Below, piece after piece: positions 3,985 to 37,733 of a stretch of DNA of 64,000 nt; within the stretch, counting starts at the first letter, position 1, and each line of letters opens with the position of its first letter. This DNA is from Olsenella sp. Marseille-P4559 (lineage in GTDB: Bacteria > Actinomycetota > Coriobacteriia > Coriobacteriales > Atopobiaceae), in the NCBI RefSeq assembly GCF_900605015.1, contig NZ_LR027574.1:512479-576478 (forward strand). The letters run 5' to 3'. The position numbers were made by a program, and so were the translations under genes. Below the pieces are notes generated by a model. The model saw only the letters and a program-made list of their open reading frames with translations, was not told the origin of the DNA and ran no database searches.

Positions 3985-5983
<1,999 letters not shown>

Positions 5984-30116: not shown

Positions 30117-31178
30117 TCAATGCGCACGGGTCATGACGCCCTTCCACGAGCGCGGTACCGTGAGGTCCTCGAAGACGCGCACGGCATAGCGGTCGGTCAT
30201 GCCCGAGACGTAGTCTGCCACCTGCACGTCCGGGTGGTCCGCATCGTGCTTGAGATACTCCTCGGGCACCTCATCCATGTGGACCACGAGGTAGTCGAAC
30301 AGAAGCTCGATCATGCGCGAGGCCTTCGGCTCCTCCTCCTTGGCGTCGCCTTTGGTATACAGGGACTCGAAGAGGAAGGAGCGGAGCCGCATCATCGCGT
30401 CCCACACGCCATCCGACATGCGTATGTCACCAGCCTCGGCACTGCCAGCACAGATGTCTCGCACCATCGTGTCGATGCGCCCCGAAGAGCTGTCGCCGAG
30501 AAGCTCGCGCGGCGCCAGGGGAAGGTCGTTCTCGGTGAGAAGCCCCGCGCGCTCCGCATCGTCGATGTCGTGGCAGACGTAGGCAATCCTGTCTGCGCAC
30601 GCCACAACCCTCCCCTCGAGCGTCTGGGCGCGCTTCGAGCCCGTGTGGCAGAAGATGCCGTCCCGAACCTCCCAGGTGAGGTTGAGGCCGCGGCCGTCCT
30701 TCTCGAGACACTCGACTAGCCGCACGCTCTGCCTGTTGTGTCGGAAGAGGTGTTGAGCCGCCGTGGAACATGGATCGATGCCTCGATAGCGCGCGATGGC
30801 GTGCGAGAGGGCCTGCTCGCCGCAGTGGCCAAAGGGCGTGTGCCCAAGGTCGTGCCCGAGCGCAATGGCCTCCGTGAGGTCTTCGTTCAGCCCTAGCGCG
30901 CGCGAGATGGTGCGGGCAATCTGCGCGACCTCAAGCGTGTGTGTGAGTCGCGTGCGGTAGTGGTCGCCCTCGGGCGCGAGAAAGACCTGGGTCTTGTTGG
31001 CAAGCCTCCTAAAGCTCTTGCAGTGGAGGATTCGATCACGATCGCGCTGGTAGCAGGGCCTGAGGTAGTCCTCCTCCTCGTAGACGTCCCTCCCCTGTGA
31101 CTGCGCGCTCCTTGCGGCGTGCTCGGAGAGCGCCTCCTCCTCGTAAGCGAGCTGGTCATCTCTGTCGTAAACCCTCAT
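30117..31178 (-). CDS. dgt: Deoxyguanosinetriphosphate triphosphohydrolase-like protein
   Basis: A 353-residue HD-domain dNTP triphosphohydrolase that cleaves dNTP to nucleoside and triphosphate. Motifs: CKSFRRLANKTQVF, DHYRTRLTHTLEVAQIAR (His), EAIALGHDLGHTPFGHCGE (His-Asp) and CADRIAYVCHDIDDA (Asp), completing the H...HD...D set. Length and sequence suit the Gram-positive dGTPase-like group. ATG 31178 follows AAGGGGTTCTC. It lies just beyond the ppdK terminator, so it needs its own promoter, which was not convincingly seen. Confidence 0.92.
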   Translation of the reverse strand: MRVYDRDDQLAYEEEALSEHAARSAQSQGRDVYEEEDYLRPCYQRDRDRILHCKSFRRLANKTQVFLAPEGDHYRTRLTHTLEVAQIARTISRALGLNEDLTEAIALGHDLGHTPFGHCGEQALSHAIARYRGIDPCSTAAQHLFRHNRQSVRLVECLEKDGRGLNLTWEVRDGIFCHTGSKRAQTLEGRVVACADRIAYVCHDIDDAERAGLLTENDLPLAPRELLGDSSSGRIDTMVRDICAGSAEAGDIRMSDGVWDAMMRLRSFLFESLYTKGDAKEEEPKASRMIELLFDYLVVHMDEVPEEYLKHDADHPDVQVADYVSGMTDRYAVRVFEDLTVPRSWKGVMTRAH

Positions 31179-31275: not shown

Positions 31276-34032
31276 CTAGGCAACCTTGGCAGGGCCGCCG
31301 TTGGAGTTGATCTTTGCCTGTGCAGCCGCAAGGCGTGCGATGGGCACGCGATACGGCGAGCAGGACACGTAGTCGAGGCCGAGGTCGTAGTAGACCTGGA
31401 TGGACTCGGGATCGCCACCGGTCTCGCCGCAGACGCCGCAGACGATGTCGGGGTTGGCCTTGTGGCCACCCTCGACGCCCATCTGGACGAGCTTGGCAAC
31501 GCCGGGGTCGACGGTCGCGAACGGGTTGCGCTTGACGATCTTCTTCTCGAGATAGAGCGGCATGAACGCAGACTCGACGTCGTCACGGGAGAACCCGAGG
31601 CAGGTCTGGGTGAGGTCGTTGGTGCCGAAGGAGAAGAAGTCGGCGTGCTTGCCGATCTCGTCGGCAGTGATGGCAGCGCGAGGGAGCTCAATCATGGTGC
31701 CGATGGGGATCTCGAGCTTGACGCCCGTCTCCTCCTCGACCTCCTTCAGGGTCTTCTCGACGCCGGCGCGGACGAGCTCAATCTCGGTCTCGAAGGCGAC
31801 GAGCGGGATCATGATCTCGGGCTTGGGGTCGAAGCCCTCCTTCTTGAGCTCGGCAGCAGCGCCCGCGATGGCGCGGACCTGCATGACGTTGAGCTCGGGG
31901 TACACGATGCCCAGGCGGCAGCCGCGGAGGCCGAGCATGGGGTTGGCCTCCTGGAAGGAGTCGAGCTTGGCGAGAAGGGCGCGCTTCTCGGTGCAGTCCT
32001 TGCCGGTGCACTCCTCCTTGGCAATCTCGACCTCGAGGTCACGCGGGCTGTCGAGGAACTCGTGCAGGGGCGGATCGAGCAGGCGCACGATGACGGTCTT
32101 GCCGTCCATGGCCTTGAGCATGCCGAGGAAGTCGCCCTTCTGGGCCTCGCCGAGCTTCTTGAGGGAATCCTGCTTGACGTCGTCGGACTCAGCGAGGATG
32201 AAGTTCTGGATGAGCTGCTTGCGCTCGCCAAGGAACATGTGCTCGGTACGGTCGAGACCGATGCCCTCGGCGCCGTTGTCGGCGGAGAGCTGGGCGTCGG
32301 CGGGGTTGTCGGCGTTTGCGCGGACGCCGATCACGCGGCCACACGAAGAATCCTTGCGGACCTCGTCTGCCCAGTCGAGGATGGTCTCGAGGTCTCCGCC
32401 GAGCTCGGGGCGGACCAGGGGCACCTCGCCCAGGATGACGTCACCCGTGGTGCCGTCGATGGAGATGATGTCACCCTCGTGGAGGACGACGTCGGTACCT
32501 GCGACCTTGCACTCCTTGTTGGGTGCGTCGATGTGGAGGGCCTCGACGCCGCAGACGCAGGGGGCGCCCATGCCACGGGCGATGACGGCCGCGTGGGACG
32601 TCTTGCCGCCGTGGGACGTGAGGATGCCCTCAGCAGCGACCATGCCCTTGAGGTCATCGGGCGTGGTCTCCCAGCGCACGAGGATGGAGGGCTTGCCGGC
32701 CTCCCTGAAGGCCTCCGCGTCGGCAGAGGAGAAGACGACGGCACCGGTGGCGGCACCAGGGGAGGCGTTCAGGCCCTTGGCGAGGACCTCGTACTTGGCC
32801 TTGGGGTCGAACTGCGGGTGCAGGAGCTGGTCGAGCTGCTCCGGAGCGACGCGCATGACGGCGGTCTCGCGGGAGATGCGACCCTCCTCGTACATCTGGA
32901 TGGCGACCTTGAGCGCGGAGAGCGCCGTGCGCTTGCCGACGCGGGTCTGGAGCATCCAGAGCTTGCCCTCCTGGATGGTGAACTCGAGGTCCATCATGTC
33001 GGCGTAGTGATCCTCGAGGATCTCGAAGACGTGATAGAGCTCCTTGCCAGCCTCCTCGAGACCAGGGGTCTTGGGAAGGTCGGAGATGGGCTCGGTGTTG
33101 CGGATGCCGGCAACGACGTCCTCGCCCTGTGCGTTCACCAGGAAGTCGCCATAGCGCTCGTTGGTGCCGTCGGCGGGGTTGCGGGTGAACGCGACGCCGG
33201 TAGCCGAGGTGTCGCCCATGTTGCCGAAGACCATGCACTGGACGTTGACTGCGGTGCCGAGGTCATCGGGGATCTTGTTCTGCTTGCGGTAGAGGATGGC
33301 GCGCGGGGTGTTCCAAGATCCAAAGACGGCCTGCTCAGCAAGACGCAGCTGGAGGTACGGGTCGTGCGGGAACACGGGCTTGCCGTCAACGACGACCTCG
33401 GGGTACTTCACGGGGTCGACGTTATCGGAGAAGATCTGCTTGAACGTGACGACGAGGTCCTTGAGGTCGTCAGCATCGAGCTCGGTGTCGAGCTTCACGC
33501 CGCGCTCGGCCTTCTTGGCGTTGATGGCATCCTCGAAGAGCTGGCCATCGACGCCCATGACAACGCCCGAGAACATCTGGACGAAGCGGCGATAGGAGTC
33601 GTAGCCAAAGCGGGGGTTGCCGGTCTTCTTGATGAGGCCCTGGACGGAGTCGTCGTTGAGGCCGAGGTTGAGGACCGTGTCCATCATGCCGGGCATGGAG
33701 AAGGGCGCACCGGAGCGAACGGAGACGAGCAGCGGGTCGTCCTTGTCACCGAGCCTCTTGCCCATGCGCTTCTCGAGGTCCTTGCGGTAGGCGTCAATCT
33801 CGTCAAGGACGCCGTCGGGCCAGACGTTGCCGGCCGAAGAATAGGCGACGCAGGTCTGGCAGGTAATGGAGAACCCCGGAGGAACGGGAAGGCCGATGTT
33901 GGCCATCTCCGCCAGGTTGGCGCCCTTGCCGCCGGTGATCCACTTCGCCTCGTCGACGGTAGCGCCGGCAACTTCGGTCACGTTGTTGCCGTTCTCGTCC
34001 TTTCCGAAGCGGTACACGTGCTTCTCAGACAT
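31276..34032 (-). CDS. ppdK: Pyruvate, phosphate dikinase
   Basis: A 918-residue PPDK, interconverting pyruvate + ATP + Pi and PEP + AMP + PPi. The N-terminal ATP-grasp domain has ITGGKGANLAEMANIGLPVPPGF, SVRSGAPFSMPGMMDTVLN and VMVFGNMGDTSATGVAFTR-like segments; the central swivel domain carries the catalytic His in GGKTSHAAVIARGMGAPCVCG, with the regulatory Thr directly before Ser-His; the C-terminal PEP/pyruvate TIM barrel has GIGLDRTEHMF, LGLRGCRLGI, FFSFGTNDLTQ and CGETGGD. ATG 34032 follows GGGAGTGAA. In anaerobes it typically works in glycolysis with PPi. A half-length homologue of its regulator lies just upstream. Confidence 0.96.
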   Translation of the reverse strand: MSEKHVYRFGKDENGNNVTEVAGATVDEAKWITGGKGANLAEMANIGLPVPPGFSITCQTCVAYSSAGNVWPDGVLDEIDAYRKDLEKRMGKRLGDKDDPLLVSVRSGAPFSMPGMMDTVLNLGLNDDSVQGLIKKTGNPRFGYDSYRRFVQMFSGVVMGVDGQLFEDAINAKKAERGVKLDTELDADDLKDLVVTFKQIFSDNVDPVKYPEVVVDGKPVFPHDPYLQLRLAEQAVFGSWNTPRAILYRKQNKIPDDLGTAVNVQCMVFGNMGDTSATGVAFTRNPADGTNERYGDFLVNAQGEDVVAGIRNTEPISDLPKTPGLEEAGKELYHVFEILEDHYADMMDLEFTIQEGKLWMLQTRVGKRTALSALKVAIQMYEEGRISRETAVMRVAPEQLDQLLHPQFDPKAKYEVLAKGLNASPGAATGAVVFSSADAEAFREAGKPSILVRWETTPDDLKGMVAAEGILTSHGGKTSHAAVIARGMGAPCVCGVEALHIDAPNKECKVAGTDVVLHEGDIISIDGTTGDVILGEVPLVRPELGGDLETILDWADEVRKDSSCGRVIGVRANADNPADAQLSADNGAEGIGLDRTEHMFLGERKQLIQNFILAESDDVKQDSLKKLGEAQKGDFLGMLKAMDGKTVIVRLLDPPLHEFLDSPRDLEVEIAKEECTGKDCTEKRALLAKLDSFQEANPMLGLRGCRLGIVYPELNVMQVRAIAGAAAELKKEGFDPKPEIMIPLVAFETEIELVRAGVEKTLKEVEEETGVKLEIPIGTMIELPRAAITADEIGKHADFFSFGTNDLTQTCLGFSRDDVESAFMPLYLEKKIVKRNPFATVDPGVAKLVQMGVEGGHKANPDIVCGVCGETGGDPESIQVYYDLGLDYVSCSPYRVPIARLAAAQAKINSNGGPAKVA

Positions 34033-34256: not shown

Positions 34257-34661
34257 CTACTCGTTCTCTGCGGGACGCCCAGAGTACGTGGCACCAATCG
34301 CGTGGCTCGGCTCCTCGCCCGTAAGTGTCGAGATGACCGTGACGGCAGGCCCCAGAAGGTCGATGGAGGGAATGCCCCTCCTGTCGAGCTCGCGGCGAAT
34401 CTCGCGGCGAAGCTGGCCGTTTGCAAAGGTGTGGAAGACGGCGCTGGGCCTGTCGGGGTCGAAGTTCTTGTCGAAGTAGTCTCGGACCTGCTCGACGCTC
34501 TCGACGCCCGACACGCGGATAATATCGACGGAGCCATCGCCAAACTGTGCGGCTGCGGCTTCCACAACGGCCTTTGCAGTCTCGCCACGTGCGTCAGAGA
34601 GCACGTAGATGGCGGGGACAACGTGGCTGAAGACATCGTCGTCCAGATCAAGTTTCCTCAT
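34257..34661 (-). CDS. N-terminal half of a PPDK/PEP synthase regulatory protein (PDRP/DUF299 family)
   Basis: A 134-residue protein. Residues 17-120 match the N-terminal half of the bifunctional kinase/pyrophosphorylase family PF03618: AIYVLSDARGETAKAVVEAAAAQF, then VRDYFDK, SAVFHTFANGQLRREI and GIPSIDLLGPAV. Full proteins are about 270 residues and continue with the YFxRIxAIEFA segment and the catalytic GVSRTSKTP P-loop; here the frame ends at SGRPAENE and none of that follows in any frame before ppdK. ATG 34661 follows GGGAGGATCG. Placement directly upstream of ppdK fits a regulatory link, but without the P-loop it should not be catalytic. Could be a specialised domain or a stable truncation. 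Confidence 0.75.
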   Translation of the reverse strand: MRKLDLDDDVFSHVVPAIYVLSDARGETAKAVVEAAAAQFGDGSVDIIRVSGVESVEQVRDYFDKNFDPDRPSAVFHTFANGQLRREIRRELDRRGIPSIDLLGPAVTVISTLTGEEPSHAIGATYSGRPAENE

Positions 34662-34724: not shown

Positions 34725-36821
34725 CTACTTTCGCTTCGAAAGCGCGCCAATATCGGCGACGTCACCAAAGACTCCAGCGAAACGGTTAAGAAGGCGAAGC
34801 CTATTGTCCCTCACGGACGGGTCGGAATCCATCACGAGGACGTCGGTGAAGAAGCGGTCGATGGGTGCGCGCAGACCCGCCAGCGCCTCGCAGGCACCAG
34901 CAAAGTCGCCAGACCCAAGGGCAGAGGAGACGGCCTTCTCGCCCTCCTCACAGGCAGCGAGAAGCGCCTTCTCGGCGTTTCCCAGAAGGTGCTCGTCAAC
35001 CTCGGTGCCAAGCGCGGCGTCGGCGAGGTGGGCGGCGCGGGCATAGGCCGTGGCGAGGTCTTCGAAGAGCTCGGGGCTCTCGGAGCGGGCGTGGTCAAGG
35101 GCTGCCGCGCGGCGAACGAACTCGTTGGGGTCGATGACGCCAATGGCACTCACGGCCTCGATGGCGTCGGGTGCGACCCCCTCATCCTTGGCGATGGCAG
35201 CAAGGCGACCCTGGAAGAAGGAGGCCACGGCCGCGGCTACGGCATCCGCATCGAAGGCAATGCCCTGTTCGGCGTAAGACGAGAGCGCAAGGTTGATGAG
35301 AGGACGCAGGTGGACGGCAGGAAGCGTGCGCAGCATGGCAATCACACCGATGGCAGCGCGGCGCACGGCGAAGGGATCGGAGGAGCCCGTGGGCGGCTCG
35401 TCGATGGCAAAGATGCCGCAGGCGGTGTCGAGCTTATCGGCAATGGCCACGCACTTGCCTGCAAGGCCAGAGGGAAGCTCGTCGCCGGCAAAGCGAGGGC
35501 GATAGTGCTCGCGGATGGCGTCACAGACCTCCTGGGGCTCGCCTGCGGCCTTTGCATAGTAGCCGCCCATAACGCCCTGCTGGTTGGTGAACTCGACCAC
35601 GGCCTGGCTCACGAGGTCTGCCTTGGCGAGATGCGCGGCGCGCCTTGCGAGCCCGCAGGCCTTCTCGTCTGCGCCGGCGGACTGTGCCACCGCAGAGGCA
35701 AGGACCTCCATGCGGGAGACCTTCTGGCGCACGGTGCCGAGCCTCTCCTGGAAGACGACGGTGTCAAGGCGCTCCACGAACTCGTCCATGGGCACCTTCA
35801 GGTCCTCCTCGTAGAAGAACTTGGCATCGTCGAGGCGGGCGCGGACAACACGTTCGTTGCCGTCGACCACGGTCGCTGAGACCTTGGGGTCGGCGTTGGA
35901 GACAACCACGAACTCGCGCGTGAGGTTGCCCTCGCCGTCGTAGACGGGGAAGTAGCGCTGGTTCGAAAGCATGGACTCGCAGATGATCTCGTGCGGGACC
36001 TTGAGGAACTCCTCGTCGAAGGTGCCGACAAGGACCGTCGGCCACTCGCAGAGGTTCACGACCTCATCGAGCGTGCGCTTGGGCGTGTCAACGTGGGAGC
36101 CAGGGCGCTCTGCCTCGACCTGCCGGACGCCCTCGAGGATGGCCGCGCGGCGCTCGCCCTCGAGCAGCACGCCATTCTCGCGCAGTACATCGGCGTAGAC
36201 CGCGGGACTTTCTACCCTGTGGTCCCCTGGCCCCAGCACACGGTGCCCGCATGTGGTGCCGGAGCTTGTGACGTCGGCATAGCTTACGGGGACGACCTCG
36301 TTGCCGAGAAGGGCGCAGATCCACCGGATGGGACGCACAAAGGTCTGGTGCTCGGAGCCCCAGCGCTGGCTTCTGTAGTTGGGCCACTCGATTGAGCCGA
36401 TGACCCGCTCAGAGAGGGCCGAGAGGATGGGCGCGGCAGGTCGGGCATCCACGTGCTTCTCGGCAAAGACGTACTCCCGGCCGTCGGTGTCCACGCGACG
36501 TGCGAGCCCGGATGCGTCAACGCCAAACTTGCGGGCAAAGCCCTGGGCGGCCTTGGTGGGTGCACCGGTAGCGTCAAACGCGATGCTTGCCGCCGGGCCA
36601 CGCCTGACCTCATTGAGCTCGTCGGTAGCAGGGGCGACGTCGTGGACGCGCGCTACGAGCCTACGCGGAGACTGGTGGGTCTCCACGTTGCCGTGCGCAA
36701 GGCCCGCCTCGTCAAGACCCTTGCGCATCAGGTCACCAAGCTGCACCACGGCGTGGCTCAGCGGGGCGGACGGCATCTCCTCGCAGCCTATCTCGAGCAG
36801 GAAGTCCCTCGTCTCGGCCAT
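34725..36821 (-). CDS. glyS: Glycyl-tRNA synthetase beta subunit
   Basis: A 698-residue beta subunit of the alpha2-beta2 glycyl-tRNA synthetase, responsible for tRNA binding. Seen: FLLEIGCEEMPSAPLSHAVVQL at the N-terminus, SPRRLVARV, QGFARKFGV, YVFAEK, MRWGS-type region RSQRWGSEHQTFVRPIRWICALL, KRTLDEV, HEIICESMLSNQRYFPV, ANFFYEEDLK-like and the HD-like AKADLVSQAVVEFTNQQGVMGGYYA, with a C-terminal anticodon-binding region. It begins directly after the glyQ stop. Confidence 0.96.
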   Translation of the reverse strand: MAETRDFLLEIGCEEMPSAPLSHAVVQLGDLMRKGLDEAGLAHGNVETHQSPRRLVARVHDVAPATDELNEVRRGPAASIAFDATGAPTKAAQGFARKFGVDASGLARRVDTDGREYVFAEKHVDARPAAPILSALSERVIGSIEWPNYRSQRWGSEHQTFVRPIRWICALLGNEVVPVSYADVTSSGTTCGHRVLGPGDHRVESPAVYADVLRENGVLLEGERRAAILEGVRQVEAERPGSHVDTPKRTLDEVVNLCEWPTVLVGTFDEEFLKVPHEIICESMLSNQRYFPVYDGEGNLTREFVVVSNADPKVSATVVDGNERVVRARLDDAKFFYEEDLKVPMDEFVERLDTVVFQERLGTVRQKVSRMEVLASAVAQSAGADEKACGLARRAAHLAKADLVSQAVVEFTNQQGVMGGYYAKAAGEPQEVCDAIREHYRPRFAGDELPSGLAGKCVAIADKLDTACGIFAIDEPPTGSSDPFAVRRAAIGVIAMLRTLPAVHLRPLINLALSSYAEQGIAFDADAVAAAVASFFQGRLAAIAKDEGVAPDAIEAVSAIGVIDPNEFVRRAAALDHARSESPELFEDLATAYARAAHLADAALGTEVDEHLLGNAEKALLAACEEGEKAVSSALGSGDFAGACEALAGLRAPIDRFFTDVLVMDSDPSVRDNRLRLLNRFAGVFGDVADIGALSKRK

Positions 36822-37733
36822 CTAGGCCACCTCCCCCTTCTTGGCGGGCGCGCTCTTCTCGCCAGCGACCTCGGTGAGGTAGGCCTCGCAGCATTCCTTG
36901 GCAACGGTGCGGACGCGCAGGATGTAGTTGGCACGCTCCGTGGCGGAGATTGCCCCGCGGGAGTCAAGCAGGTTAAACGCATGGCTGCACTTCATCACGC
37001 AGTCGTAGGCGGGAAGCGGCAGGTGGGCGTCCAGGCAGGAGTGGCATTCGGCCTCGTACTCGTCGAACTTCTCGCGCATGAGGTCAACGTTCGCCACCTC
37101 AAAGTTGTAGGAAGAGAACTCGCGCTCGTTCTCGTAGAAGACGTCTCCGTAGGTCATGGGGGTGCCGTCGGGCAGGTAGCTCCACGTGATGTCATAGACG
37201 GAGTTCACACCCTGCGCATACATGGCAATGCGCTCGAGACCGTAGGTGATCTCTGCCGGCACCGGGTCAACCTCGATGCCACCGACCTGCTGGAAGTAGG
37301 TGAACTGTGTGACCTCCATGCCATCCATCCACACCTCCCAGCCAAGGCCCCAGGCACCCAGCGTCGGGCTCTCCCAGTCGTCCTCGACAAAGCGCACATC
37401 GTGCTCGGCAGGGTCAAGGCCAATGGCGGCAAGAGAGCCAAGGTAGAGGTCTTGGGAGTCGATTGGCGAGGGCTTGAGGAGCACCTGGAACTGATAATAG
37501 TGCTGCAGGCGGTTGGGGTTCTCGCCATAGCGGCCGTCAGCGGGGCGGCGGCACGGCTGCGGATAGCAGGTCCGCCAGGCAGCAGGACCGAGCGAGCGCA
37601 GAAGCGTAGCCGTGTGGAATGTTCCCGCGCCCACCTCTGAGTCGTATGGCTGCATAACGGTACAGCCCTTGTCGGCCCAGTAATGCTCAAGGGCGAGAAT
37701 CGTGTCTTGGAACGTCAGCGGGCTTTCGCTCAT
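36822..37733 (-). CDS. glyQ: Glycyl-tRNA synthetase alpha subunit
   Basis: A 303-residue class II catalytic subunit: [62 protein letters not shown]-like (here [17 protein letters not shown]), [33 protein letters not shown], and [13 protein letters not shown]. The C-terminal 15 residues are Ala/Lys-rich. ATG 37733 follows GGAGGAAGGACAGAT; the upstream frame to 37802 is in the gap to lepB, which holds only a 7-bp stem (CAGACGC/GCGTCTG). No T-box leader is visible. Confidence 0.97.

Follow-up and report, generated by a model that had tools for sequence, protein, structure and literature searches.

The gene directly upstream of ppdK in the window analyzed here (the whole stretch of 64,000 nucleotides) encodes a member of the PF03618 family which lacks the kinase half, is truncated at the domain boundary, and is kept under very strong purifying selection. 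Pyruvate phosphate dikinase (PPDK) is normally turned on and off by a two-domain enzyme, the PPDK regulatory protein (PDRP); the protein described here, which we call half-RP, is the N-terminal domain of such a regulator standing alone and, judging largely by analogy with the maize protein, is most likely a retained noncatalytic nucleotide- or phosphate-binding modulator of the PPDK encoded in the window.

The half gene and its neighborhood

PF03618 (DUF299) is the PDRP/PpsR family of PPDK and PEP synthase regulatory proteins, which includes maize PDRP1 (PDB 5d0n and 5d1f) and E. coli PSRP; none of the papers we searched names PF03618. Half-RP matches the Pfam profile at 67 bits (2.7e-18; cut-off 23.5) over profile positions 1-107 of 256 only, and matches the NCBIfam PPDK/PPS regulator model NF003742 over positions 7-114 of 270, below the cut-off of that model. 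A first-pass annotation, made from the sequence alone, had described half-RP as the first half of the family with the P-loop half missing downstream, and the genome bears out both points: i) the 224 bp between the half-RP stop and the ppdK ATG at 34032 are too few for a catalytic domain of about 160 residues, leaving no room for the kinase half downstream; ii) a direct domain search found no match to the catalytic domain with its P-loop GVSRTSKTP, either at the locus or in the whole genome; and iii) a whole-genome search for PF03618 returned half-RP as the sole match. The same searches rule out a split catalytic half encoded elsewhere, and they exclude for this genome the earlier suggestion that half-RP competes with a full-length regulator at another locus, a suggestion which likewise fails more widely because essentially all genomes with the half form lack the catalytic domain altogether. 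Since the catalytic domain is absent, neither the ADP-dependent kinase nor the Pi-dependent pyrophosphorylase activity is expected of half-RP.

Half-RP resembles PDRP/PpsR proteins in its HMM family, in the fold of the N-terminal domain, and in the signature SDxxGxT and FHT...R...D..GP, and it occupies the same position between glyS and ppdK as the full-length gene of related genera; it differs in that the whole C-terminal domain, including the GVSRTSKTP P-loop and the HDDG motif, is gone genome-wide, leaving 134 residues instead of approximately 270-300. According to a review (PMC9138534), maize PDRP can be superposed on HprK/P, a kinase/phosphorylase with a single site, but half-RP is without the domain carrying that active site, and its likeness to HPr kinase/phosphorylase (HprK) comes through the review only.

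The genes on the minus strand run in the order glyQ, glyS, half-RP, ppdK, and an HD-domain dGTPase-like gene (Table 1), with half-RP directly upstream of ppdK as first annotated and with the good ribosome-binding site noted at that time (GGGAGG, 7 nt ahead of the ATG). A scan for promoters and terminators in the spaces between these genes found nothing. The adjacent PPDK does keep its regulatory site, as had been pointed out, but the observation is uninformative: GGKTSHAA is invariant in the PPDKs of half-form, full-length, and outgroup loci, so the target Thr carries no information and was discarded as evidence.

Table 1. Features of the half-RP locus in the window, and loci encoding paralogous half proteins
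Feature	Position or loci	Strand	Basis or remark
half-RP, stand-alone N-terminal domain of PPDK regulatory protein, 134 aa (ATG at 34661, stop at 34257)	34257..34661	-	PF03618 match, AF2 model, fold match to maize PDRP, dN/dS
Residues 22-28 of half-RP (S-D-A-R-G-E-T), putative phosphate/nucleotide loop	34578..34598	-	Alignments, comparison with full-length proteins
ppdK, pyruvate phosphate dikinase, 918 aa, GGKTSHAA target/catalytic motif	31276..34032	-	ORF, Pfam, and motif
glyS, glycyl-tRNA synthetase beta subunit, upstream neighbor of half-RP (63 bp gap)	34725..36821	-	ORF and Pfam
glyQ, glycyl-tRNA synthetase alpha subunit	36822..37733	-	ORF and Pfam
HD-domain dGTPase-like gene, downstream end of the conserved order	30117..31178	-	Named by eye; order kept in relatives
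Type C loci	L110, L111, L112, L114, L116, L119, L135; around 4900-5400 in each
Half paralogs in DeoC-type aldolase operons	L113, L115, L118, L120, L121		With GntR-UTRA regulator

Distribution, selection, and descent of the half form

We surveyed 122 Atopobiaceae genomes, each at least 85% complete. The N-terminal domain is present in 118 of them and the catalytic domain in 12, all 12 of which carry a full-length gene; a few of the remaining N-terminal matches are fragments at contig edges. PPDK was found in 115 genomes and pyruvate kinase in 120, in half-form and full-length genomes alike, and loss of pyruvate kinase was accordingly rejected as the reason for loss of the kinase domain. In our sampling of the class and of the phylum, only Atopobiaceae showed the half form; matches outside the family, fragments apart, cover nearly the whole profile or reach a full-length score. 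A PDRP homologue has been said to accompany PPDK in all bacteria (PMC8100219), a statement that needs qualification, as most homologues in Atopobiaceae are without the catalytic half.

The first-pass annotation had proposed looking for the half form next to ppdK in relatives. It is conserved there in every close relative, half-RP being 95-96% identical to its counterparts in Tractidigestivibacter scatoligenes and T. montrealensis (Atopobiaceae), an identity that points to Tractidigestivibacter as the probable genus of the window, and full-length genes, which in sister strains would have indicated recent truncation, occupy the locus only in other genera. Specifically, the slot between glyS and ppdK holds a full-length regulator in g3, g5, g11, g13, g34, g42, and g137 (loci L122-L129, L132, and L133) and the half form in the other genera examined, the one exception being g18, where an altered full-length protein follows glyS and ppdK is not beside it. 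This g18 regulator (L130:4288-5115 and L131:3396-4223) has a long branch and the P-loop GLSGSAKTP instead of GVSRTSKTP, possibly a third route to losing kinase control; the g18 PPDK gene has been relocated, and its product is only 67% identical to the PPDK of the window. In 76 of 80 publicly named loci (78 half forms and 2 full-length), ppdK lies directly downstream of the regulator; 2 loci are cut short, and 2 lack ppdK at that position (Atopobium sp. oral taxon 199 and Lancefieldella rimae). The ppdK gene itself is interrupted by an in-frame TGA or frameshift in L084 (G012, near 1989) and L096 (G015, near 2870, with an unreadable codon), possibly through assembly errors.

Across eight genomes of the window's genus, the half-RP core has a median dN of 0.004, a dS of 0.54, and a dN/dS of 0.007, below the values of 0.027 for the N-terminal part of ppdK and 0.071 for the C-terminal part of glyS in the same genus; a second set, mostly from g4, gave a dN/dS of about 0.09 for the half form. 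These values, together with the survey count for the N-terminal domain, uphold the original impression that the gene is not decaying.

In a tree of PPDK, the main half clade holds together as one (100/100), with g11 as the nearest full-length genus, and the g35 half forms fall within another clade, one of full-length forms. The concatenated GlyQ, GlyS, and PPDK sequences reject a tree with all half loci in one clade (p-AU 1.9e-5), and no other data set does so: the result for PPDK alone is borderline (p-AU 0.064), and the N-terminal domain alone (p-AU 0.228) offers 110 columns, too few to resolve the question. The rejection implies that the kinase domain was lost at least twice independently, or that the half gene was transferred; two losses are the simplest account. 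The C-terminal ends also differ, g35 proteins stopping right after a conserved Gly (residue 123) and main-clade proteins about 10 residues later. Gene trees were also built separately because three loci (L083, L087, and L140) carry conflicting ppdK histories; their ppdK lineage differs from that of the flanking glyS, which suggests that ppdK may have been replaced there by recombination, and GlyS, unlike PPDK, groups L082 with L083, both from g4.

Structure and possible role of half-RP

An AF2 model of half-RP (43 sequences; pLDDT 87, pTM 0.80) has a confident alpha/beta fold over approximately residues 14-122, and the sole Foldseek match with E <= 0.001 was maize PDRP bound with AMP (PDB 5d0n, E 2.1e-4), the fold expected rather than a different one. 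Compared by VIA, the model and maize PDRP give a Z of 8.8 and an rmsd of 2.5 over 89 residues, only slightly above unrelated Rossmann-like folds which also reach Z 8, so it is sequence and fold together that carry the assignment of half-RP to the predicted Rossmann-like fold of the PDRP N-terminal domain. Within the loop S-D-x-x-G-x-T, S22, D23, and G26 are invariant and T28 is at least 90% conserved; all four are present in 28 of 28 main-clade halves, and all four are conserved across halves, full-length proteins, and paralogs. H77, T78, R85, D101, and G104 are invariant as well, and in the model the invariant residues appear to follow directly on strands, the places at which phosphates are bound in folds of this kind. 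Two arginines, Arg25 (26 of 28 main-clade halves) and Arg86 (28 of 28), are derived in the main half clade, the full-length proteins carrying Leu in place of Arg25 and a mixture of residues at position 86; Arg25 is absent from the half forms of g16 and g35.

The explanation we favor, and hold tentatively as a whole, is that i) a full-length PPDK regulatory protein (PDRP/PpsR, DUF299) lost its catalytic C-terminal domain in place, in an ancestor of most Atopobiaceae; ii) the remaining N-terminal domain folds alone and is kept by very strong selection; iii) its ligand would be an adenine nucleotide (by analogy with maize, AMP) or some other phosphorylated compound, bound in a proposed pocket formed by S22-D23-x-R25-G26-x-T28, H77-T78, R85-R86, and D101-G104; and iv) the ligand-bound protein would modulate PPDK reversibly and noncovalently, replacing the lost on/off phosphorylation, through a presumed contact and with an effect whose direction is likewise presumed. 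The analogy for AMP is with maize PDRP (PDB 5d0n, AMP complex) at about 26% identity. The N-terminal domain of the maize protein is folded like the catalytic domain and carries a phosphate-binding loop of its own; an allosteric role has been proposed for it, and it is described as regulatory, the single active site lying in the C-terminal domain (review, PMC9138534). Across Atopobiaceae, which are gut and oral bacteria, half-RP probably works as a small sensor protein without any kinase.

Paralogous half proteins and competing explanations

Half proteins of three other types, B, C, and D (e.g., L118, L114, and L117), form one clade (100/99) that includes genome G311, which still has a full-length regulator at ppdK. 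Like half-RP, they consist of the N-terminal domain only, cut near the same boundary and with the pocket conserved; unlike half-RP, to which they are approximately 35-50% identical, they are encoded away from ppdK and beside other enzymes. The type C gene comes immediately downstream of the gene for a glycyl-radical-enzyme activase (radical-SAM) at all 7 loci of this type, together with a divergent PFL-like glycyl radical enzyme, and on contigs that extend far enough a fructose-6-phosphate-aldolase-like gene is next; for type B the preceding gene encodes a DeoC/LacD-type aldolase (4 of 5 loci), with a GntR-UTRA regulator nearby and a transaldolase in some; and type D has an abhydrolase and an NrdG-like gene as neighbors (2 of 3 loci). 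Some of the DeoC-type operons contain a transaldolase and a transketolase part, and a 288-residue protein encoded in these operons (orf288) has no Pfam or NCBIfam match.

These neighborhoods argue that the isolated N-terminal domain is a usable module, one not tied to PPDK, so that PPDK need not be its partner. The noncatalytic modulator of the first-pass annotation therefore stands in part: a modulator is plausible because half-RP and the N-terminal domain of the regulator share a fold, but the proposed tie to PPDK is weakened by half paralogs adjoining other enzymes. These paralogs and the relocation of ppdK in some genomes both count against our favored explanation. A broader view, possible but in our estimation more doubtful than that explanation, is that the domain is a stand-alone nucleotide- or phosphate-sensing subunit, which may have separated from the kinase on two or more occasions at the ppdK locus and on one further occasion in the paralogous clade, and found new use next to glycyl-radical-enzyme activases and in aldolase operons, noncovalent control replacing control by phosphorylation.

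The main rival makes half-RP a general stand-alone regulator that senses a ligand and now has a partner other than PPDK, adjacency to ppdK being inherited from the full-length ancestor. Besides the separate half clade downstream of activases or DeoC-type aldolases, it can point to part of Lancefieldella (g15: G021, G085, and G188) and to G248 (g45), where ppdK has moved away and the half gene has stayed beside glyS (L086, L107, L188, and L222). Yet these genomes still encode PPDK, which is available in trans; about 95% of named loci, spanning a deep radiation, still have the regulator gene next to ppdK; and in L102 (G206) the half gene still adjoins ppdK while glyS and glyQ are no longer found upstream. 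We consider this rival unlikely.

Co-localization with ppdK and strong constraint would also suit a structural subunit or stabilizer of PPDK that senses no ligand, but the invariant residues gather round the expected nucleotide pocket and are not spread across a surface, and we regard such a role as improbable. Somewhat harder still to credit is the idea that half-RP is itself a catalyst, Arg25 and Arg86 restoring phosphate chemistry on PPDK or another target: the pocket is conserved, the two arginines arose once the catalytic domain was gone, and the N- and C-terminal domains share a fold (PMC9138534), but the loop has no lysine (SDARGET versus GVSRTSKTP in the catalytic domain), the maize N-terminal domain is regulatory with the one active site in the C-terminal domain (PMC9138534), and Arg25 is not shared by the half forms of g16 and g35. 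That half-RP is a remnant of the full-length regulator in decay, although this would account for a truncated gene at the ancestral locus, is extremely improbable given the dN/dS of 0.007, the complete fold, an intact gene in about 100 genomes and most genera of the family, and retention of the half after two separate losses or a transfer, and also after duplication.

We wish to stress that Atopobiaceae keep PPDK without the regulator kinase and, of the regulator, just the half with no explained role in maize. As that half has been isolated by nature more than once, and in culturable relatives (Lancefieldella rimae and Olsenella species), the role of the N-terminal domain is directly testable, and the finding bears on the replacement of covalent regulation at the PEP-pyruvate node.
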